Virus record (IMG/VR): IMGVR_UViG_3300009509_000006
Coordinates: 1 to 64,000 of that record
Origin: a virus
Reading direction: 5' to 3' (one strand)
Length of the DNA: 64,000 nucleotides
The translations under genes were made by a program, and so were the position numbers. Positions 1,721 through 63,032 of this stretch are shown here, piece after piece (within the stretch, counting starts at the first letter, position 1; every line of letters begins with the position of its first letter). The notes beneath the pieces were generated by a model. That model did not search any database and was not told the origin of the DNA. It saw only the letters and a program-made list of their open reading frames with translations.

Positions 1721-3280
1721 TCAGAAAGCAGGGAAAGCGTTCGAGACGGCAATGAAGTCCATCTCGTCCATCGCCGCTTGCAGAGCTCTCATGGCGTCAC
1801 GGACGCTCTTGGCGCTTTTGGCTTTCACCAAGGCTTTCCGCCACCCCTTCAAGCCACCATCGCTCGGGGCGGATTGGAGCAGGTCTTGGTCGGCGTCATG
1901 GAGGAGGCGACCAATCATGTTCGAGATACCGATGAAGTCCATTGCGTCCATCGCGTTCTGGATGTGCTTGAGCGCCACCCCCACCTTCACCCGCAACAGC
2001 GACGCGGCCTTGAGCTCACTCCAGAATTCCTTCTCGGCTCCAGGGGCAGGCTCTCCGAAGTCGCCACCCGGAGCTTCGATCAAGGCGCGAGCACGCTCGA
2101 GCAGGTCGGAACTCTCCTTCTTGACTTTGTGCTTCGACTTGCCCGTCCATGGCGTTCCGATCTGACCGGTCCTCTTCTTGCCCTTCCTGGGCTTCCTCTT
2201 CTGGCGGTAGTGCCGCAGGTAGCCGGCGACGGCCTCGGGGTCACGGACGTCCTTGCGGGCCTTGAGCGCCTTGAGCGCCTTCGTGCCCTTGAGCTGTTCG
2301 GTCTCGGCGAGTGGGGAGCCACTCGCATCGGTGTCTTCGGCGAGAGCCTGATCGATGGCATTCGAAATCACCATGAAGTCCATCGAATCCATCGCGCGGC
2401 CGAGGGCCTGCATTGCGGCCCGCACGCTCGTTGCCTTCTTGGCCTGGAGCAGGTTCTTGCGCCAGCTCTTCCGCTCGCCCTCGCCGGGCTCGCGCTGGAG
2501 CTCCGCCGCGGAGGACTGCAGCATGTGGCCGATCGCGTTCGAGACGGCGATGAAATCCATCTCGTCCATCGCGTTCTGGATGTGCTTCAGCGTCTCGGCG
2601 ACATTCGGGCGCGTGATGGCGGCCTTCTGGATGTGCGCCTTGAAGCGCTTTGCCGCTCCAGGGTCGGGCTCGTACATCTCGAGGGCCACGTTCTCGAGGT
2701 CTTGTGCGACGGCGTCGGCGTAGAGCTTCGCGAGCTCCTCGGGGCCCTCGACATGGTCGAGCGACCACTTGCCCGGGGACCAGGACAGGCCGCCGCCTCC
2801 CCCTCCACCCATCGTTGTCGTGCCGCCGCCCACCGTCTGGTAGACCTTCTCCTTCTCTTGCTCCTGCCCGAGCGTCGGTGTCACGTGCCACTTCGACTTG
2901 GCCTGGGCCTTCTCCTTCTCTTTGGCCTTCTTCTGCGCCCAGGTCATTGTCTGAGCCTTGGCCTGCTGCTTTTGCTTGGCCTTCTGGGCCTCTTTGGCAG
3001 CCTTCTCGACCTTCTCACGGGGGGCGATCGCCACCCACTTCACCGAACCCTTCTGGATCTGGAACTTGCCACCGAGGCCCTTGAGGAAGTTCTCGAGCAT
3101 CTTCCTGGAGCCCTTGATCGAATGGTAGATCTTGACGACCACGAAATTCTTCGGGTCGGTCCGGTGGGGCCTGTAGTGGATCCCCTTCTTGCCATTGACG
3201 TAGTTGACGATGAAGTCCTGGCCTTCCTTCGGGATCGTGGCCTCTCGGATGATCTTCGCCACGGCGGGATGCACGGGCAT
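1721..3280 (-). CDS. Large basic protein with a duplicated about 98-residue helical module
   Basis: The 519-residue product begins after AAGGAGG. Residues 1-85 form a compact domain (NYVNGKKGIHYRPHRTDPKN). Residues 86-130 are a lysine/glutamine/alanine-rich helix and 151-164 a glycine run. Two copies of a roughly 98-residue module follow, at about 212-310 and 419-516, separated by a very basic linker (KRKPRKGKKR). Each module holds two half-repeats built on the motif A-M-D-x-M-D-F-I-x-x-S-N-(A/M)-I, so the motif occurs four times (231, 289, 437, 497). The protein may be cut after IRE at residue 13 (AKIIRE before A), consistent with a head-internal protein. I do not recognise the family. Abundance in lysine suggests DNA contact. 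Confidence 0.75.
   Translation of the reverse strand: MPVHPAVAKIIREATIPKEGQDFIVNYVNGKKGIHYRPHRTDPKNFVVVKIYHSIKGSRKMLENFLKGLGGKFQIQKGSVKWVAIAPREKVEKAAKEAQKAKQKQQAKAQTMTWAQKKAKEKEKAQAKSKWHVTPTLGQEQEKEKVYQTVGGGTTTMGGGGGGGLSWSPGKWSLDHVEGPEELAKLYADAVAQDLENVALEMYEPDPGAAKRFKAHIQKAAITRPNVAETLKHIQNAMDEMDFIAVSNAIGHMLQSSAAELQREPGEGERKSWRKNLLQAKKATSVRAAMQALGRAMDSMDFMVISNAIDQALAEDTDASGSPLAETEQLKGTKALKALKARKDVRDPEAVAGYLRHYRQKRKPRKGKKRTGQIGTPWTGKSKHKVKKESSDLLERARALIEAPGGDFGEPAPGAEKEFWSELKAASLLRVKVGVALKHIQNAMDAMDFIGISNMIGRLLHDADQDLLQSAPSDGGLKGWRKALVKAKSAKSVRDAMRALQAAMDEMDFIAVSNAFPAF
1733..2647 (-). repeat. Coding repeat: two about 295-bp modules, each with two AMDxMDFI half-repeats
   Basis: Within the gene at 1721-3280, the segments 2351-2647 and 1733-2026 encode the two copies of the duplicated module. 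At DNA level the most conserved stretch, plus-strand ATGAAGTCCATCTCGTCCAT and close variants, recurs at about 1751, 1935, 2374 and 2550. Because the duplication is in frame and the protein copies are diverged mainly outside the core motif, it is a protein-level repeat, not a mobile or regulatory element. Confidence 0.75.
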
Positions 3281-4422: not shown

Positions 4423-4848
4423 TCAGCGTTCGCGCCAGGCTTTGTCGACAAGCTCCGGGATCTTCTTCATCCGGATCTTGTTCACGGCGTCTTTGAGCCC
4501 TGCATTCGACAGCAGTGCGAGCAAATGTCGCATCACCTCGGGGGCGTTGTACTTGTTGAACGCCGGGGTCTTCGGTTTGCGCTCCAGGAGTGCTCTTGCC
4601 GCGGCCATGGGATCCACGCTCTCGGCTTTCGGAGGCTGCCCGGGCTCTTTCTCGTTCGCTGGTTTTCCGTCCTTGTCTTGCGGGGGCGGGGGTGGCGGGG
4701 TCTCGCCTTTGGGGATCTTGTAGCGCTTTCTGAGCTTCGGGACGATACTCCGGATCACGTCGATTGGCGTCTCGGGCACTTTGGGCTGCTGCTCCGCGTC
4801 TTGCTCCCTGGCGAGCAGCAGTTGTGCCTCATCGATCAGGTCTCGCAT
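4423..4848 (-). CDS. Putative internal head protein with capsid-targeting N-terminus
   Basis: The 141-residue product begins MRDLIDEAQLLLAREQ, matching the shared N-terminal peptide (M-R-x-L-I-x-E-A), with a predicted prohead-protease cut after LIDE at residue 7. It continues with a basic helix (SIVPKLRKRYKIPKGE), a proline-rich linker (six consecutive prolines, then DKDGKPANEKEPGQPP) and a helical C-terminal domain (MAAARALLERKPK; APEVMRHLLALLSNAGLKDA). A second LLE-type site, ALLE before R, lies near residue 89. Start supported by CGGAGG four bases upstream. No enzymatic motif is visible. Its linker-and-domain layout would suit a packaged, ejected effector, but that is inference. Confidence 0.7.
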   Translation of the reverse strand: MRDLIDEAQLLLAREQDAEQQPKVPETPIDVIRSIVPKLRKRYKIPKGETPPPPPPQDKDGKPANEKEPGQPPKAESVDPMAAARALLERKPKTPAFNKYNAPEVMRHLLALLSNAGLKDAVNKIRMKKIPELVDKAWRER

Positions 4849-10325: not shown

Positions 10326-10718
10326 TCAGAAGCGAATATGGATATGGATGTTCGGCATGCCGACGTGTCCGAAAGTGCTCGCCGAAGTCGTCGAAGTGCC
10401 CCAACCCGGGCCCACCATGACGAACTGCTGCGGGACAACGCGCCGTGGCGGCACCGGCTTCGGCACTTCCATGGCGAGTATAGCCTCGACCGTTTCCCGG
10501 ATCACCTTGAACTCCTCTTCTTTCGCCAAGTCATTCGGGTGCAGGTCGGGGTGCGTCTCACGCGCGACGCGCTTGAACTCTCGCTTGACGTACTTCTTCA
10601 GTGCCTCGAGAGCTCGGACGCGCCCATCGTAGGGGCCGTTCTTGATCGCCACGAGGGCAGCGGTCCCAATGCGTAGCCGCTGCATGGCGAATGATACTTG
10701 CTCGGGCGAGAGTGCCAT
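10326..10718 (-). CDS. J-domain (DnaJ-like) protein
   Basis: This 130-residue protein carries the J-domain signature: helix II KKYVKREFKRVARETHPDLH with the invariant H-P-D at 56-58, then a loop and helix III (EEEFKVIRETVEAILAM). J domains stimulate the ATPase of Hsp70 (DnaK), so the protein probably recruits the host chaperone. The remaining 45 residues are a proline- and glycine-rich tail ending in an unusual histidine run, PNIHIHIRF. ATG 10718 overlaps the stop of the Nudix gene (ATGA). Together with the GroES-like gene 3 kb away this suggests a small folding toolkit. The proposal rests on the HPD and helix pattern, so a degenerate J domain is possible. Confidence 0.65.
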   Translation of the reverse strand: MALSPEQVSFAMQRLRIGTAALVAIKNGPYDGRVRALEALKKYVKREFKRVARETHPDLHPNDLAKEEEFKVIRETVEAILAMEVPKPVPPRRVVPQQFVMVGPGWGTSTTSASTFGHVGMPNIHIHIRF

Positions 10719-11716
10719 CAGAACCTTCGTGTCTGCGGCTCCATCCGGGTGACGTAGCCGCGATTGTAGTCGTCGCGATCGAGAATGACGAGGTGATACC
10801 AGCTACCTTTGATCACATCGAGGGGTTTGACACGGGCCTTCTTGAGGGGTCCGAGGATCTCGTTGACGTCTCGCTTGTTCGAGAGCTTGATCACGATCTT
10901 GCTCTCGTCGACGTTGCCCTCTGGAGTCTTGAAGTCGTCGGTCTTCATGTCGAGATCGTAGACGAGCTCGGACAGCGCGACCTGGACCCGCTTCATTTTC
11001 ATCCGGCGCTTGAACTGGCCGCGCTGCGGGTTCTGCTTGAGCCACTTCTGGGCTTTCTGGAGCACCTTCATGTCGCGGTAGTTGCCCGTCTTCTGCATCA
11101 GGGCAATGGCTTCCTCGAAGGGCAGGAGCAAGACCTTCGACGTCTCGAAGTCCGTCTTCTTGAGCGCTCCAGTGGTCTGCACCATGACGTAGTAGTACGT
11201 CACGCTCATCGTACCCTCGAACTTGCCTAGGTTGGACCCTGGCAAGACCTTGGCGACGACGCCAGCCTCCTCCTCGACCTCACGGATCGCGGTCTCTTTC
11301 TTCCCCTCACCTTCGTCGACCCGGCCTTTCGGGAGCGTCCAGGCCTTGCCTCCGTACTTGCCCGAGGGCTGCCGGATGTAGACGTAGTTGATCTCGTCGG
11401 GGTGCAGGGAGGGGATGACGACACCCCCTGCCGAAACCCACTTTTCCGGCTTCTTGGGTTTGCCGTGCGGGGGCTCCTTGGGGCTCATGGGCAAGTCCGA
11501 AACGCTCGGAACATCGTCCCAGAACGACGAGCCCGCGGCGAACTTCGAGGGCGCTTTCTTCTTCGGCGGCTTCGGCGGCTTCTGCTTCTGCCCGGGCGCC
11601 CACGGCTCGTCGACGCCACTCACATTCTTGGGATCTTTCCAGAATGGGAGCCAGGCTTTGGAGTCGGCCTCGAGCAGTTTGGCAATGCCCCGGATTGCCT
11701 TGCGTGCAGTTCCCAT
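10718..11716 (-). CDS. Nudix hydrolase, possibly capsid-packaged
   Basis: The 332-residue product contains a complete Nudix box at residues 131-153: G131, E137, then REVEEEAGV at 145-153, satisfying GX5EX7REUXEEXGU. Such enzymes hydrolyse a nucleoside diphosphate linked to another group using Mg bound by the box glutamates. Substrate cannot be told. The N-terminus MGTARKAIRGIAKLLEA resembles the capsid-targeting peptide (I-x-x-G-x-x-K-L-L-E-A, identical in that frame to the metalloprotease at 58902) with a possible protease cut after LLE16; a proline/lysine-rich linker (residues 40-60) follows. The C-terminal 120 residues are an extra basic domain. The ATG at 11716 is preferred to GTG 11719 because GGAGG lies seven bases before it and it overlaps the previous stop (ATGA). 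Confidence 0.85.
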   Translation of the reverse strand: MGTARKAIRGIAKLLEADSKAWLPFWKDPKNVSGVDEPWAPGQKQKPPKPPKKKAPSKFAAGSSFWDDVPSVSDLPMSPKEPPHGKPKKPEKWVSAGGVVIPSLHPDEINYVYIRQPSGKYGGKAWTLPKGRVDEGEGKKETAIREVEEEAGVVAKVLPGSNLGKFEGTMSVTYYYVMVQTTGALKKTDFETSKVLLLPFEEAIALMQKTGNYRDMKVLQKAQKWLKQNPQRGQFKRRMKMKRVQVALSELVYDLDMKTDDFKTPEGNVDESKIVIKLSNKRDVNEILGPLKKARVKPLDVIKGSWYHLVILDRDDYNRGYVTRMEPQTRRF

Positions 11717-12549
11717 CACCAGGCCTCCACAATGAAGTTCACCGGGACTCCCGTCGCGCCGGCCATTCCTGTGTGCGTGAACCCAACGTTCAAGACCGTG
11801 TCTGTAATCGCATTGTTCGCGGCGGTGCCGGGCAAGCCAACAAGGTCGACGGTAGCGGCGCCGCCGTTGGAAGCTGTGATCTCGAGCACTGGAGCGCTGT
11901 TGATGGCTGCGATGATGAGGTCCCGCACAGCGTCGGCATCGCCCCCGCCGGACAAGTCGACTTGGCGCAACGTGTCCGTTTCGACGACCGACCCGTCCTT
12001 GTCGAACTCGAAAGTAACGGCCGGGTTCGCCCCGTCATTCAGGACGAAGACCTCCCCATCGTTGATGAGCGCGGCCTCGATCGTCGTGATGTCCCCCTCC
12101 GCCAGGTCCCCACCGATACGCAAGGCGATTCCAGCCTCGTAGCGATTCCGGTAGACCTGCGCGGCTTCGTTCGAAGTTACCCCGCGCACATACCCGTGTG
12201 GGAGGATGCCGTCGAAGGAGAACTCGAGGTCTTCCCCTGTTCCCCCGTCGTGCGCAATGCGCATCGTCTGCGTGTGGATCATTGGCTTCGGGGCGGGAGG
12301 GATCCCGGGAACCACGGGGCGCTGTCCGCCTCCCATCGGAGTTCCGCCTTTCGAGAGGTCGCCGAACTGCACTGGGTCTGTCGACCCTGGAGCGACGTAG
12401 GGCGTCGGCTCGACAGTGTTCGCTCCAGGTTGGTCGATGTAGAGGTAGGCGTTTCCTGAGAAGCTCGGCGTCGTCGTGCCCTTGATCAGTACCCGGAATG
12501 ATCTATGGCCGGACGCCGAGCGTGGCGGCCAGCCGGTCGGGAAGGCCAT
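11716..12549 (-). CDS. Virion structural protein with tail-type beta domain
   Basis: The 277-residue protein starts after AGGAGAGATGAC. Residues 1-105 are a proline/glycine-rich region (YLYIDQPGANTVEPTPY, GIPPAPKPM). Residues 155-277 carry a beta domain with the pattern G-x-V-F-V-L-N-D-G, T-F-E-F-D-x-D, R-x-L-I-x-A-I-N, V-x-L-x-G-x-x-G-x-x-x-N. The same domain plan is found inside the sheath gene at 49949 and, more distantly, in the baseplate genes at 33650 and 21300. It is therefore likely a virion surface or baseplate component. A short N-terminal part rich in T/S/G (HRSFRVLIKGTTTPSFSGNA) is like those of fibre-associated proteins. No enzyme motif. Confidence 0.65.
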   Translation of the reverse strand: MAFPTGWPPRSASGHRSFRVLIKGTTTPSFSGNAYLYIDQPGANTVEPTPYVAPGSTDPVQFGDLSKGGTPMGGGQRPVVPGIPPAPKPMIHTQTMRIAHDGGTGEDLEFSFDGILPHGYVRGVTSNEAAQVYRNRYEAGIALRIGGDLAEGDITTIEAALINDGEVFVLNDGANPAVTFEFDKDGSVVETDTLRQVDLSGGGDADAVRDLIIAAINSAPVLEITASNGGAATVDLVGLPGTAANNAITDTVLNVGFTHTGMAGATGVPVNFIVEAW

Positions 12550-58112: not shown

Positions 58113-58637
58113 CTACTTCCCAGGAAACTCCTTCTTGAGCTTCGATTCCACAGCCTTGTTCCACGACTTGAGCTTCGGGCCCTCCCACCAGCGCGACGCC
58201 GCGGCGCCGACAGCCGCAGCGCCTCCCCAGAAGGGGTCGTACCGCCCGTACAGCTGCTTCGTGTCCGAGATCTTTGCGCTGGCGTGCCCAACGAGGTGTC
58301 GAGCGTTGACGAGCTCCGGTGGAAGGATCATGAGGAGGCCTTCCTTCCTGAGCATCTCAACAGTGAAGTCCGTACCCTTGAGCATTCCTCGGGCGTCGTC
58401 CATCGCGCTTTTGCCAATGTCGAATCCCTGCTCGCGCGTCAGGTACTTGCGCCCGTAGGCAACGCCCTTCTTCCACTGGGCCTCGGCAAACTTCGATCCG
58501 GACAAGGATTTGCCGAATTTGTCCTTGTAGCCCATGAAGGGCTTCTTCCACTCTTCGTGTGGGACAGGAGGATCGGGAAATTGCGCCTCAAGCTTGCCCT
58601 CGAGCAGGTCCCGGCCCTCTTGGATGAAACGTCGCAC
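58113..58637 (-). CDS. Capsid-targeted internal head protein
   Basis: This 174-residue protein starts at GTG 58637 and begins MRRFIQEGRDLLEG, one of the shared capsid-targeting peptides, with predicted cuts after IQE (before G8) and LLE (before G14). After a proline-rich linker (FPDPPVPHEEWKKPFMG) it has a helix pair (AEAQWKKGVAYGRKYLTREQ), a helix M-L-K-G-T-D-F-T-V-E-M-L-R-K, an alanine/glycine patch (FWGGAAAVGAAASRWWEG) and a basic C-terminus (KAVESKLKKEFPGK). The start gene overlaps the previous gene. No known enzyme motif. Confidence 0.75.
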   Translation of the reverse strand: MRRFIQEGRDLLEGKLEAQFPDPPVPHEEWKKPFMGYKDKFGKSLSGSKFAEAQWKKGVAYGRKYLTREQGFDIGKSAMDDARGMLKGTDFTVEMLRKEGLLMILPPELVNARHLVGHASAKISDTKQLYGRYDPFWGGAAAVGAAASRWWEGPKLKSWNKAVESKLKKEFPGK

Positions 58638-58638
58638 A

Positions 58639-58902
58639 TCAGCCCCCTACTTCCTTGAGCTTCGCGGCCACTTCGGGGTCCTTGCCCCAGCGCTTCCTGA
58701 CAGCCGCCTTCACGGCAGGGTAGTCACTGGAGTCACCACGCTTCGCCTGGATGTAGGCGAGAGCGCGGATCGCGTGCTCCTGGTCATGGATCGGCCACCC
58801 CTTGCGCTCGGGGAAGACGAATGACGACTTTTTCATGCGCTCGCGCTTCCCTGGCGTGATCTCGTCGAGCAGCGCACGTCCTTCTTCGATCAGGTCTCGC
58901 AT
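58639..58902 (-). CDS. Capsid-targeted small internal head protein
   Basis: The 87-residue product (ATG 58902, overlapping the metalloprotease stop as ATGA) begins MRDLIEEGRALLDE, with predicted cuts after LIEE (E7, before G8) and LDE (E14). The mature part, S-F-V-F-P-E-R-K-G-W-P-I-H-D-Q-E-H-A-I-R-A-L then A-V-K-A-A-V-R-K-R-W-G, matches a small helical domain often found fused to phage portal- or head-related proteins (H-A-x-x-A-L-A and K-x-A-V-x-x-R). It is compact and basic, as expected for an internal protein packed with DNA. Confidence 0.75.
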   Translation of the reverse strand: MRDLIEEGRALLDEITPGKRERMKKSSFVFPERKGWPIHDQEHAIRALAYIQAKRGDSSDYPAVKAAVRKRWGKDPEVAAKLKEVGG

Positions 58903-59849
58903 CACACAACTCCCATGTCCTGGAGCACAGTGACCACACCCTTCTTGATGCGGTTCTGGCTCTTTGGCGTGAGGTGTTTCTTGATCTCGCGCCATGTGTT
59001 GGATTGCCCGAGCAGAAACGTCACCGCCTTGCTCTGCGGCCACGCTACGAGTTTCGCTCTGTGCGCGCCAACCAGGTCCCGAACCTGCGCGGAAATCTCC
59101 TGCATGTAGGCCTTCACCTCTTCGGGCGAGTTGTAGTAGCGAGCCTGGCGCTCCTTCGCCTTGGCCTTCGCCTGAGCTCGCTGCTCTTTCGGACTGTCCG
59201 GCGGATGCAATCCCACCTTCGTGAGGGTCATCTTCAGCCGCTCAGTTGAGTCGCCGATCCCGAGCTCTTTTCGCTTCCGGGCGATCAGTCGGTGCGAGAC
59301 CTCGCCATAGCCAGCTGCCTTCAAAATCTGCGAGATCTGCCTATCCGAGAAGGGATGAACAGGGTTCTCCTGCTGGAGCAGCGCTACGATGTGACGCTCC
59401 AGGCTCTTCTTTCGCAGCACGTCCTTGGCGTGGGTGATCTCGTGCATGAGGGCGTACTTCATGGCGCCCTGAATGCTCGACATCTCGGTCCCACGCAAGA
59501 GCGGCACGAGCTCGCCGGCACCGAGATTTCCGTTCAGCATCATGTTGATGATTCGCTCTTTCGGCGCGTAGACGGCACCCAGAAAGAGCCCGCGCACGCC
59601 GGGCCTCTTGACGCTGATCACCGAGACCGGAATCTCGCGCTTCTTGCCCTTGACATCGGACACAGTGATCTTCTCGGTGGCCCACAGCTTGTCGCCGATC
59701 GGCTTGGTCGGTTGCACCCTCGCCATGCTCTGGAGCGCGGGCACGAACTGGCCCATGAGCCGCTTGACGAGCATCGTAACGACTTGGTCAGGCAGCTTGA
59801 TCGGGCGGGCTTCGAGGAGCTTGTGCCCTTCCGTGATCAGGTCTCGCAT
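58902..59849 (-). CDS. Capsid-targeted zinc metalloprotease candidate (HExxH)
   Basis: The 315-residue product starts after GAGGTAGCC with MRDLITEGHKLLEA, a capsid-targeting peptide with predicted protease cuts after LITE (E7) and LLE (E13, before A). Residues 135-140 contain M-H-E-I-T-H, a gluzincin/metzincin-type HExxH zinc motif in a helix (Y-A-L-M-H-E-I-T-H-A-K-D), where two histidines would bind zinc and Glu137 act as base. The third ligand is not obvious; D143 or a later residue is possible. The rest is basic and helical, with an R/K/A-rich stretch (EQRAQAKAKAKERQARYY). A packaged protease that is injected into the host is the most interesting reading; a self-contained head maturation role is the alternative. 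Confidence 0.7.
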   Translation of the reverse strand: MRDLITEGHKLLEARPIKLPDQVVTMLVKRLMGQFVPALQSMARVQPTKPIGDKLWATEKITVSDVKGKKREIPVSVISVKRPGVRGLFLGAVYAPKERIINMMLNGNLGAGELVPLLRGTEMSSIQGAMKYALMHEITHAKDVLRKKSLERHIVALLQQENPVHPFSDRQISQILKAAGYGEVSHRLIARKRKELGIGDSTERLKMTLTKVGLHPPDSPKEQRAQAKAKAKERQARYYNSPEEVKAYMQEISAQVRDLVGAHRAKLVAWPQSKAVTFLLGQSNTWREIKKHLTPKSQNRIKKGVVTVLQDMGVV

Positions 59850-59938: not shown

Positions 59939-61435
59939 TCAGATGTTGAGCACGCGGACCTGCCCGTAGTATTCGGCCCGAAGCAGCTTCTTCGCGTAGC
60001 GGGTACGCAGACCCTTACGGAAGCTCATGTCATTCGGATCCAAAAAGGTGGGCGTCACCTGCAACGGGACGTAGGGGGCCCAGACGAACCCGGCGTCCAA
60101 GTACGAGCCGCCCTTGAGGCCCAGCATCGCGAAGTCGGACGCGAAGAACGGGTCGACGTAGACGACCCACTTCCGCATCAGGGTGCCGGCCTTGTAGACG
60201 CCGAACTGGCCGTGCTGCGTCAGGGGGCGCGGCATGTCGGCCGGTCCGAGCGGGCTCTCGCCGCCGCTCACCCAGATCGGGCGGTAGTCGCCGTGAGTGG
60301 TCAGCTGCTCCATCAGAGCGCTGATCTCGGGCGAGGTCACAATCCAGTTCGCGGGCGCACGCAGGGTCCGCTTGTGGATCGAGTTCGACACCTGGGACAG
60401 CACGGTGACGAGCGACCGGAGGTGATCGATCTCGGCGATGCCGCTGGGCGGGATCCGATCGAAGGTTCCACCGCTCCCGGTCGAGGCCAGGAACAGGTCC
60501 TGGATGATCTCCCGGTCGATCTCGAGCGCCATCTCGCTCGCCGCTGCAGCGACCAGCTCCGTCTCGGCTTCGAGCCCCTGCAGGTTGCGCAGGTCCTCAG
60601 CCGCTTCCGAGCTCCAGAGAGCCTTGAGACGACGCGGGACCGCCTCGATGACGGCTTTCTTCACGTCGAGCTGCACTTCGGGCAGCTTGGTGTTGAGCTC
60701 GCCGTCGTAGCTGTAGTACATCTTGATCTGGTGGCCAGCCACGGGGTCGACGGCGAAACGCACACCCGCCAGGGCACCATTCGAGTAGTTCAGGGTGCCG
60801 GCGGTGAGATCGGTGCTGGTGTCCGCGGCACCACTCGCCAGGAACTTGCCCTCCTGAATCACGGACCCGGCCGCATCGAGGTCGCGGATGATCACGTCAT
60901 AACCGCGATCGGTACTCGGCTTGTGCACCGGAGTGAGAGCCAGATTCACACTGATCGGCACACCACTGGGACCGTAGTCCGAGCCGGTACCGGTGGCGAG
61001 GATTTCACCATTCACGAACTCCGAGCTGTAGTAGCGGTCGAAGTCGCGCGGGAACACGTCGCCGCGAGTCGTTTCCCCCTTGGTCGTACCGTAGACATAG
61101 TCCAGGTAGAACACGGCGCCCTGCGGCGCGGTCATGGGCTGCACCGAGACGATCTCGTTCACGATCAAGTTCGGGAACACACGGCTGAGCACCGGGAACA
61201 CGAATTTCGTGAAGTAGCCCACATTGATGGCCCTCGTCTCTTCGTTCATGCTACGAAGGTGACGGGCCTGGTTCTCGTAGAGCATCGCCATGCAGCCCCG
61301 AATGTAGCGCTCGTGGCGACAGCGATCCGGCATCCCTTCCAGAAGGGGTGCCCACTTCTCCACGTATGCGCCGACGAGACGGCGGTCGGCGATGGTGCCA
61401 CTGCTATCTTCGATCACAACTCGACGAGCTTCCAC
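59939..61435 (-). CDS. Major capsid protein (gp23-like)
   Basis: The 498-residue product starts at GTG 61435, eight bases after AGGAGG. It matches T4 gp23 over its N-terminus: V-E-K-W-A-P-L-L-E-G-M-P and Y-E-N-Q-A-R-H-L (T4 has NKWKPLLEG and ENQEKDF), then V-F-P-N-L-I-V-N-E-I-V-S-V-Q-P-M-T-A-P-Q-G-A-V-F-Y. T4 gp23 is cut after Glu65; here M-N-E65 before E66 occupies the same place, so mature protein would begin ETRAINVGYFTK. The C-terminus (FRKGLRTRYAKKLLRAEYYG) is basic as in T4. Length is close to T4 gp23 (521). It is followed by a terminator. The main shell subunit, folded in T4 by GroEL with gp31; a GroES-like gene is found in this window. Confidence 0.92.
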   Translation of the reverse strand: MEARRVVIEDSSGTIADRRLVGAYVEKWAPLLEGMPDRCRHERYIRGCMAMLYENQARHLRSMNEETRAINVGYFTKFVFPVLSRVFPNLIVNEIVSVQPMTAPQGAVFYLDYVYGTTKGETTRGDVFPRDFDRYYSSEFVNGEILATGTGSDYGPSGVPISVNLALTPVHKPSTDRGYDVIIRDLDAAGSVIQEGKFLASGAADTSTDLTAGTLNYSNGALAGVRFAVDPVAGHQIKMYYSYDGELNTKLPEVQLDVKKAVIEAVPRRLKALWSSEAAEDLRNLQGLEAETELVAAAASEMALEIDREIIQDLFLASTGSGGTFDRIPPSGIAEIDHLRSLVTVLSQVSNSIHKRTLRAPANWIVTSPEISALMEQLTTHGDYRPIWVSGGESPLGPADMPRPLTQHGQFGVYKAGTLMRKWVVYVDPFFASDFAMLGLKGGSYLDAGFVWAPYVPLQVTPTFLDPNDMSFRKGLRTRYAKKLLRAEYYGQVRVLNI

Positions 61436-61466: not shown

Positions 61467-63032
61467 TCAATCCGCTCCAGGCGGCATCAACTCCTTCAGG
61501 GCTCCGAGGCCAACACCGAGACCATTGAAATCGGTGTCCTCACTGAGTGCTCTCCTGACAGGCGTATCCGGCCAGGGCTCCTCCTCGTCGAACGGTGTGT
61601 GTCCGACTCCGCCCCCCAATTGACGGCGAATCCGCGAAACCGTGGATTCGATGGCCTCCAGCGAACGCTTCGGAGGCCGGAACTGCTCGATGATCGAGTC
61701 GACGTCTTCGCGAGACGACAGGGCCGATCGGTCGAACACTTCCCTGATCTGCTTGGCCCTCGGGTGCTTGCCGATACGTCTCTCCCCGTACAGCTGAAGG
61801 CCCGTGATGTGCAGTGCTTCGGCAGACTTGTGTAGCGCGGTCTCCAGGTCGCGCACACGGTCGTGCAGCTGCTCGAACTGAGCTTCGGCGCGCTCGGTGA
61901 GCTCGCGGTGTTGCTCCTGCGCCTGTTCCTCCTCCAGACGCAGCTCTTCGAGATGCTCTTGCACAGAGGCGAGCTTCGACTGGAAGTCCGCCTCGGATTC
62001 GAACCGCGAGAGGTCTCCGACCAGTTGCCGCACACGCTCGGCATCCGGGTTCTGGTGCAACTCTCGCTCCATGTACCAGGCGAACCCGGCCACCTGGGCC
62101 AGAGTCACCAGCTTCTCGTTCTCTTCCTCGAGTTCGGCCACGCGGGCACGCACCTTGTCTCTCGACTCTCGCAGCCGAGCGATCTCTTCGTCTCTGCGCT
62201 CCAGGGCTTCGCGGGCTTCTCCGGATCGCATGAAAGGCGCGAGAGCCTCTCGGATCACGTGGAAGGCCTCGACCTTCTGGAGCGTCTCGTCGCTGCGCAG
62301 CTCGGCCCGGACGTCCGCCTCGACGACCGTGCGCAGCTCGGACATTCGCGTCAGGATGTCCGTGGCGATCTCGGCATTCATGTCGGGATCGCCCGAAGCG
62401 TTCTCTTCGGGAAGGAACTCGTCCCCTTCCGGGAACTCGATACCTTCGAACAGGAGCATGCTGTCAAGGTCGACACTCTCGCCGACCATTGTCGGGTAGG
62501 CGGTCTGATCCGCGGGGTCGGCAACGAAGTCGAATGCGATGAGCTTGTAGTCCTCCTGGACCACGTTCTCGCCGAACTCGTTTGGCTTCGTCGTCCCGTA
62601 GCCTCGGGACGAGATTCCGACCTTGCCTCCCTCACGCAGGATGGCTGCGAGATCCTTGCCCGCCGCCGTACCGAGGATCTGCGCCTCGCCGTACACGACA
62701 TCGTCGCGGACCTCGAGCTTCGTGATCAGGTGGCTTGCCCTGGACAGCTTCGTTTTGCCGTCTTCTGGATGATCGAGCTCGCCGTAGCACTTTCGCTCAG
62801 CAAGGCGCGGCAACAGGCGCTTGATCTCCCGCTCCCACAGAGCCTTTGGGTAGACGCGCTTATTTTCGGTCGGGATACCGGCGCGGGCGAACTCACCGCG
62901 CATGAAAAGACGCTTCGTTGCCACGTCTTCGACGAGCTCGAGCTCGGTCCCCTCGATCCACTCGATGAGATGATTGAGGTCGCCGACCTTCGTGTCTTCT
63001 GTGAGCTGCTTCGTCATCAGTACCGCCGCCAT
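61467..63032 (-). CDS. Prohead protease fused to scaffold (gp21 plus gp22 in one gene)
   Basis: The 521-residue product has two parts. Residues 1-190 match the prohead protease family: Y-G-E-L-D-H-P-E with His88, and K-V-G-I-S-S-R-G-Y-G with the nucleophile at Ser141 (or 142). Residues 200-490 are almost continuous coiled coil (RVAELEEENEKLVTLAQVAG), like T4 scaffold gp22. Between them, L-L-F-E before G (E196) fits the (L/I)-x-E self-cleavage rule and would separate protease from scaffold. In T4 these are two genes (21, 22). The start may be ATG 63032 or ATG 63017, which overlaps the preceding small gene's stop (TGATG). It should process the capsid and cargo proteins. Confidence 0.9.
   Translation of the reverse strand: MAAVLMTKQLTEDTKVGDLNHLIEWIEGTELELVEDVATKRLFMRGEFARAGIPTENKRVYPKALWEREIKRLLPRLAERKCYGELDHPEDGKTKLSRASHLITKLEVRDDVVYGEAQILGTAAGKDLAAILREGGKVGISSRGYGTTKPNEFGENVVQEDYKLIAFDFVADPADQTAYPTMVGESVDLDSMLLFEGIEFPEGDEFLPEENASGDPDMNAEIATDILTRMSELRTVVEADVRAELRSDETLQKVEAFHVIREALAPFMRSGEAREALERRDEEIARLRESRDKVRARVAELEEENEKLVTLAQVAGFAWYMERELHQNPDAERVRQLVGDLSRFESEADFQSKLASVQEHLEELRLEEEQAQEQHRELTERAEAQFEQLHDRVRDLETALHKSAEALHITGLQLYGERRIGKHPRAKQIREVFDRSALSSREDVDSIIEQFRPPKRSLEAIESTVSRIRRQLGGGVGHTPFDEEEPWPDTPVRRALSEDTDFNGLGVGLGALKELMPPGAD

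Follow-up and report, generated by a model that had tools for sequence, protein, structure and literature searches.

In the 64,000-nucleotide stretch of viral DNA analysed here (the window, taken from a virus record of 98,058 bases), the gene at 10718-11716 lies in an operon of virion genes, and both its sequence and its predicted fold show the product to be a Nudix hydrolase of the Ap4A-hydrolase/MutT1 type with an intact catalytic box and predicted activity. Our overall reading, to which we give an even chance, is that of a late-operon enzyme, perhaps delivered by the virion, the N-terminus of which is at most a degenerate packaging label.

An intact Nudix enzyme encoded among virion genes

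The preliminary description of this gene holds with respect to its reading frame and domain plan: the ATG start codon lies 7 bases 3' of a GGAGG and shares one base with the stop codon of the gene upstream (TGATG), and MGTARKAIRGIAKLLE followed by ADSKAW, the Pro/Lys-rich linker and a perfect Nudix box were all found in the sequence. The features of the gene and of its upstream neighbour are as follows.

10718..11716 (-), Nudix hydrolase gene, 332 aa; Pfam NUDIX (PF00293), E 3.4e-13
11666..11716 (-), N-terminal 17 residues, MGTARKAIRGIAKLLE followed by A, a doubtful packaging label; profile HMM, matrix and structure model
11447..11665 (-), Pro/Lys-rich linker, residues 18-90, predicted to be disordered for the most part
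11033..11440 (-), Nudix domain, residues 93-228; Pfam, alignment of relatives, structure model and Foldseek
11258..11326 (-), Nudix box GRVDEGEGKKETAIREVEEEAGV, residues 131-153, with GX5EX7REUXEEXGU intact
10754..10939 (-), small C-terminal alpha/beta domain, residues 260-321; leave-one-out HMM E 5.9e-4
11716..12549 (-), upstream gene, its stop overlapping the Nudix start; homologues in contigs G007 and G023

The match to PF00293 scores 50.2 bits, well above the curated cut-off of 21.1. The Nudix domain is modelled for the most part with pLDDT >90 and retrieves 3i7u with a Foldseek E of 6.8e-10; by sequence as well as by predicted fold, the nearest solved structures are this Ap4A hydrolase and mycobacterial MutT1 (5gg5). 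The phage protein has the Nudix fold and box in common with both, whereas identity over the domain is 26-28% and the linker and C-terminal domain are its own. In a 16-row alignment of relatives the catalytic residues of the box are nearly all invariant. Residues 2-21 are modelled as a helix with low confidence. A Pfam search returned no second domain in the protein, and thus no fusion to a head protein domain. The C-terminal domain recurs in the Nudix proteins of G007, G032 and G012, and a 519-aa protein of the window (1721-3280) holds a further copy (leave-one-out HMM E 5.9e-4).

With respect to genomic position, the neighbours of the Nudix gene include a CIS_tube-like protein. A homologue of the upstream gene (starting MPFPTGWPP or similar) directly precedes the Nudix gene in G007 and is separated from it by one gene in G023, and in both contigs, as in the window, a tail-tube-like gene is located nearby. 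The enzyme would be made late, as part of the virion-gene operon of this T4-type-head phage. The surroundings also bear on a role for the Nudix domain in the tail or baseplate, as a structural or assembly factor. The CIS_tube-like neighbour is consistent with this role, as is the arrangement at three other viral loci (L093, L094 and L096), where the Nudix gene is immediately followed by a very long ORF, possibly a tape measure gene; the intact and nearly invariant catalytic residues argue against it, and we consider it unlikely. The proteins of these three loci have a different C-terminal extension and no N-terminal one.

Head processing and the N-terminal label of this phage

Whether the enzyme could enter the head depends on features elsewhere in the window, which are listed here.

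59939..61435 (-), major capsid protein, Gp23 family (PF07068), E 6e-64
61467..63032 (-), prohead protease, Peptidase_S77 of the T4 gp21 type (PF03420), in a 521-aa protein, E 5.7e-16
61241..61249 (-), conserved candidate cut site in the capsid protein, between M-N-E and E, at the position of L-T-E and A in T4 gp23; alignment
59808..59849 (-), strong label MRDLITEGHKLLEA on the HExxH protein 58902-59849; 28.8 bits, 0/5000 decoys
58861..58902 (-), strong label MRDLIEEGRALLDE on protein 58639-58902; 30.8 bits
58596..58637 (-), strong label VRRFIQEGRDLLEG (GTG start) on protein 58113-58637; 20.9 bits
1665..1706 (-), strong label MRNMIQEGRLLLEG on protein 1389-1706; 27.2 bits
4807..4848 (-), strong label MRDLIDEAQLLLAR on protein 4423-4848; 22.0 bits
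2063..2110 (-), label-like stretch SDLLERARALIEAPGG inside protein 1721-3280; 14.6-18.8 bits

In T4, gp21 cleaves after L/I-x-E, and internal proteins bear a ten-residue N-terminal capsid targeting sequence (PMC9026906). Because this precedent is matched here by a Gp23-family capsid protein, an S77 protease and a cut position at which [LMI]-x-E is kept in most of the 26 related capsid proteins examined, this phage is likely to have a T4-like processing system. The S77 protease and Gp23 are also found together in every Nudix-bearing relative of at least 99 kb. A search for an S78-type prohead protease (PF04586) found nothing, and the protease is of the S77 type; outside its S77 domain, the 521-aa protein looks like a fused coiled-coil scaffold.

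Five proteins of the window begin with nearly the same 13 residues, roughly M-R-D-L-I-x-E-G-R-x-L-L-E, and show no convincing mutual similarity once the first 20 residues are removed. A profile HMM trained on 16 labels from five phages scores the five at 21-31 bits, a level reached by 0/5000 random segments, although the window labels were in the training set and these scores are somewhat flattered; the fair figures are those of a five-label matrix, in which each true label, left out in turn, scores 16-26 bits. The preliminary description had compared the Nudix protein with a labelled metalloprotease, and that protein indeed begins with MRDLITEGHKLLEA and holds a HEITH motif. Taken together, the presence of the label and its T4-type cut site on five proteins, its recurrence in relatives and the processing machinery support the existence of an N-terminal label system in this phage. 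By analogy with T4, the S77 protease would cut the label after L-x-E. A short N-terminal peptide on several proteins, its L/I-x-E end, the S77 protease and Gp23 are all features of T4 capsid targeting (PMC9026906); unlike in T4, the label differs in sequence from MKTYQEFIAE, and T4 head proteins score at most 5 bits in our profile.

Exact DNA patterns of the label retrieved nothing from IMG/VR, and it was traced by profile in related contigs. Two of these, G001 and G021, carry the further labels MKRLIEEGRKILQE, MPSLKVLIEQGRALLEA, MSKLSEAVERGRELLSE, MLQHLIDKGRKLLEA, MSISETIERGRELLDEA and MSQLSEVIEKGRGLLGEA, most of which end in L-x-E. The labelled proteins of related phages include metalloproteases and a RelA/SpoT-domain protein. 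The latter, in G001 (L157:3900-4754, (-)), starts with MKRLIEEGRKILQE, has a RelA/SpoT domain with E 7.5e-16 and is possibly a packaged alarmone enzyme; the same N-terminus is found at L155 in G021.

Two of the window proteins listed above have further features. In addition to its HEITH motif, protein 58902-59849 (-) contains a segment that matches the sigma-54 DNA-binding domain (Pfam E 2.6e-8; E 1.5e-4 against solved RpoN domains). Both the HEITH motif and the sigma-54-like segment (segment E 5.1e-9) are retained in a G021 relative with 68% identity, and an HExxH motif is retained in a further G021 paralogue (36%) that bears a label. The 519-aa protein 1721-3280 (-) combines the internal label-like stretch (DLLERARALIEA) with an IREA site at its N-terminus, and may be processed into fragments.

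The Nudix N-terminus compared with the label

The Nudix start had been read as I-x-x-G-x-x-K-L-L-E-A and aligned on that basis with the metalloprotease label. It is in fact I-x-G-x-x-K-L-L-E-A; between I-R-G-I-A-K-L-L-E-A of the Nudix protein and I-T-E-G-H-K-L-L-E-A of the label the glycine is shifted and a gap is needed, and the ungapped alignment matches only at Arg, Ile and KLLEA. The five-label matrix gives the Nudix N-terminus 8.7 bits (rank 7), a value reached at about 12 of 29,050 other proteome sites, which corresponds to about 0.4 chance N-terminal matches in 95 genes. This score looked suggestive, but the signal was gone with the 16-label profile, and the stronger claim was dropped. 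Specifically, it scores 1.7 bits, equalled by 379/5000 random segments (7.6%), which places it outside the label family of its own phage, and the conserved E-G-R core is absent. The earlier suggestion that the Nudix protein carries the capsid label is thus not borne out by the profile, and in this respect the protein differs from the internal proteins of T4.

What the N-terminus does have is a site of L/I-x-E plus a small residue near the expected label end, LLE before A17. Such sites ([LI]xE[AG] near residue 10-18) occur in 8 of the 95 proteins, where 2.0 would be expected; the eight include three true labels and the Nudix protein, and the excess is a small hint in favour of a label. We conclude that the N-terminus resembles the label beyond chance weakly at best, and that residues 1-17 represent, at most, a degenerate version of it.

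These observations frame the proposal that the 16-residue peptide is a true label that sends the enzyme into the prohead, where the S77 protease would release it between LLE and A17. The right distance of the cut site, the KLLEA identical to that of the HExxH protein's label and the excess of such sites at N-termini speak for it, as does a strongly labelled Nudix relative (L097, contig G034). This protein begins with MKNLIQEVRKLYSRWW. Scored against a profile built without it, this start reaches 19.1 bits (E about 6e-6), and the GTG of the label is the sole start codon upstream of the Nudix domain of L097. Nudix enzymes of this kind can therefore bear the label, as this one from another phage does. 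For the window protein, the profile score, the missing core and the lack of conservation in the aligned relatives all weigh on the other side, and we regard a functional label as a tentative proposal, well short of even. A LLEA in common is, by this example, insufficient grounds for calling a protein packaged.

The comparison with relatives drew on 43 viral Nudix loci found by a pattern search with alignment. A separate pattern search of IMG/VR found no close Nudix relatives, GenBank phages gave only two weak matches, and the close phages G001 and G021 gave no Nudix match. Bacterial homologues reach 37% identity in longer alignments, against 51% for viral ones, and were of no help on the N-terminus. 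The closest relative by tree and by identity, in G023, is 54% identical over the domain and has no N-terminal extension, and those of G007, G032 and G029 keep the domain behind different extensions. Homologues of this kind, with the domain kept and the N-terminus absent or unrelated, had been named in advance as evidence against a label; these four count as such, but their force is reduced in that G023 and G007 make little or no use of the label in the stretches scanned.

Virion delivery and the labelled protein set

If the peptide is not a label, the enzyme could be an ordinary intracellular Nudix hydrolase acting on the nucleotide pool, alarmones or caps, expressed late and left unpackaged, with LLEA as a coincidence. 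The background rate of about 0.4 such N-termini and the relatives that keep the domain without this N-terminus are consistent with this, and T4 nudE itself starts without a label. On the other hand, the position among virion genes is retained in several phages, the C-terminal domain recurs in the 519-aa protein with its label-like stretch, and a labelled relative exists. We judge this alternative a serious one, somewhat below an even chance.

Delivery by the virion need not depend on the label. Phage Nudix enzymes have already been proposed, in comparative work, to be packaged in the head and injected, and T4 NudE-like proteins are encoded within clusters of late genes or as fusions with MuF, portal or a capsid-processing peptidase (PMC9503650). 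Like those enzymes, the window protein has its gene among those for virion proteins, in a phage with a contractile-type tail; unlike them, it stands alone, with its own linker and C-terminal domain, and has Ap4A hydrolase and MutT1 as its nearest solved structures. Because the gene order near a tail-tube-like gene, the S77 protease and Gp23 in relatives, distant MuF fusions and the published proposal make delivery plausible without a label, we put the odds that the enzyme is carried in the virion and enters with the DNA at about even. The earlier idea of a packaged Nudix enzyme is thus upheld as regards the label system, the machinery, the labelled relative and the published proposal, but not as regards a label of its own; packaging into the head is plausible, and the specific claim for this protein is not established.

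Our preferred reading of a late-operon enzyme, perhaps virion-delivered, is favoured by the intact box and Pfam match, the Ap4A hydrolase and MutT1 structures as nearest solved relatives, the virion-gene position and its conserved order in other phages, the S77 protease and Gp23 of the window and of the larger Nudix-bearing relatives, the five strong labels of the window, the true label of L097, the C-terminal domain common to the Nudix and 519-aa proteins, and the Phage_Mu_F fusions of more distant viral Nudix domains. It is opposed by the profile result, the G023 relative without an extension, the differing extensions in G007, G032 and G029, and the distance of the MuF-fused Nudix proteins. 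On this preferred reading, the enzyme would probably hydrolyse an NDP-linked small molecule, for example a dinucleoside polyphosphate or other alarmone. Removal of this signal would take place in the new host for a packaged enzyme, and late in infection for an unpackaged one.

In terms of wider significance, a group of phages with T4-type heads may use one label (about MRDLIxEGRxLLE) by which a variable selection of host-takeover enzymes is loaded into the head, namely HExxH/sigma-54-like proteins, a RelA/SpoT-domain protein and, in some, a Nudix enzyme, that of the window possibly having a decayed label; we see this idea as evenly balanced. If the label is real, the injected proteins of such phages could be listed from sequence alone, and the labelled set (RelA/SpoT, HExxH/sigma-54-like and the Nudix relative) would suggest an early attack on host signalling and transcription.

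Several further reading frames were also observed. Outside the window, a 2123-aa protein (G000:C1:72114-78485, (-)), rich in Pro/Glu repeats and with LCEA near its start, is a possible giant internal protein; matches to the Nudix C-terminal domain within it were too weak to claim as further copies. At L113:1-3702 and L104:3262-8379 (+), a Nudix domain and a Phage_Mu_F head domain share one reading frame, and these proteins belong to a distant branch of the tree. In G012, the Nudix domain lies within a very long multi-domain frame (L067:451-3291, (+)) together with three copies of a small alpha/beta domain and a HELGH motif.
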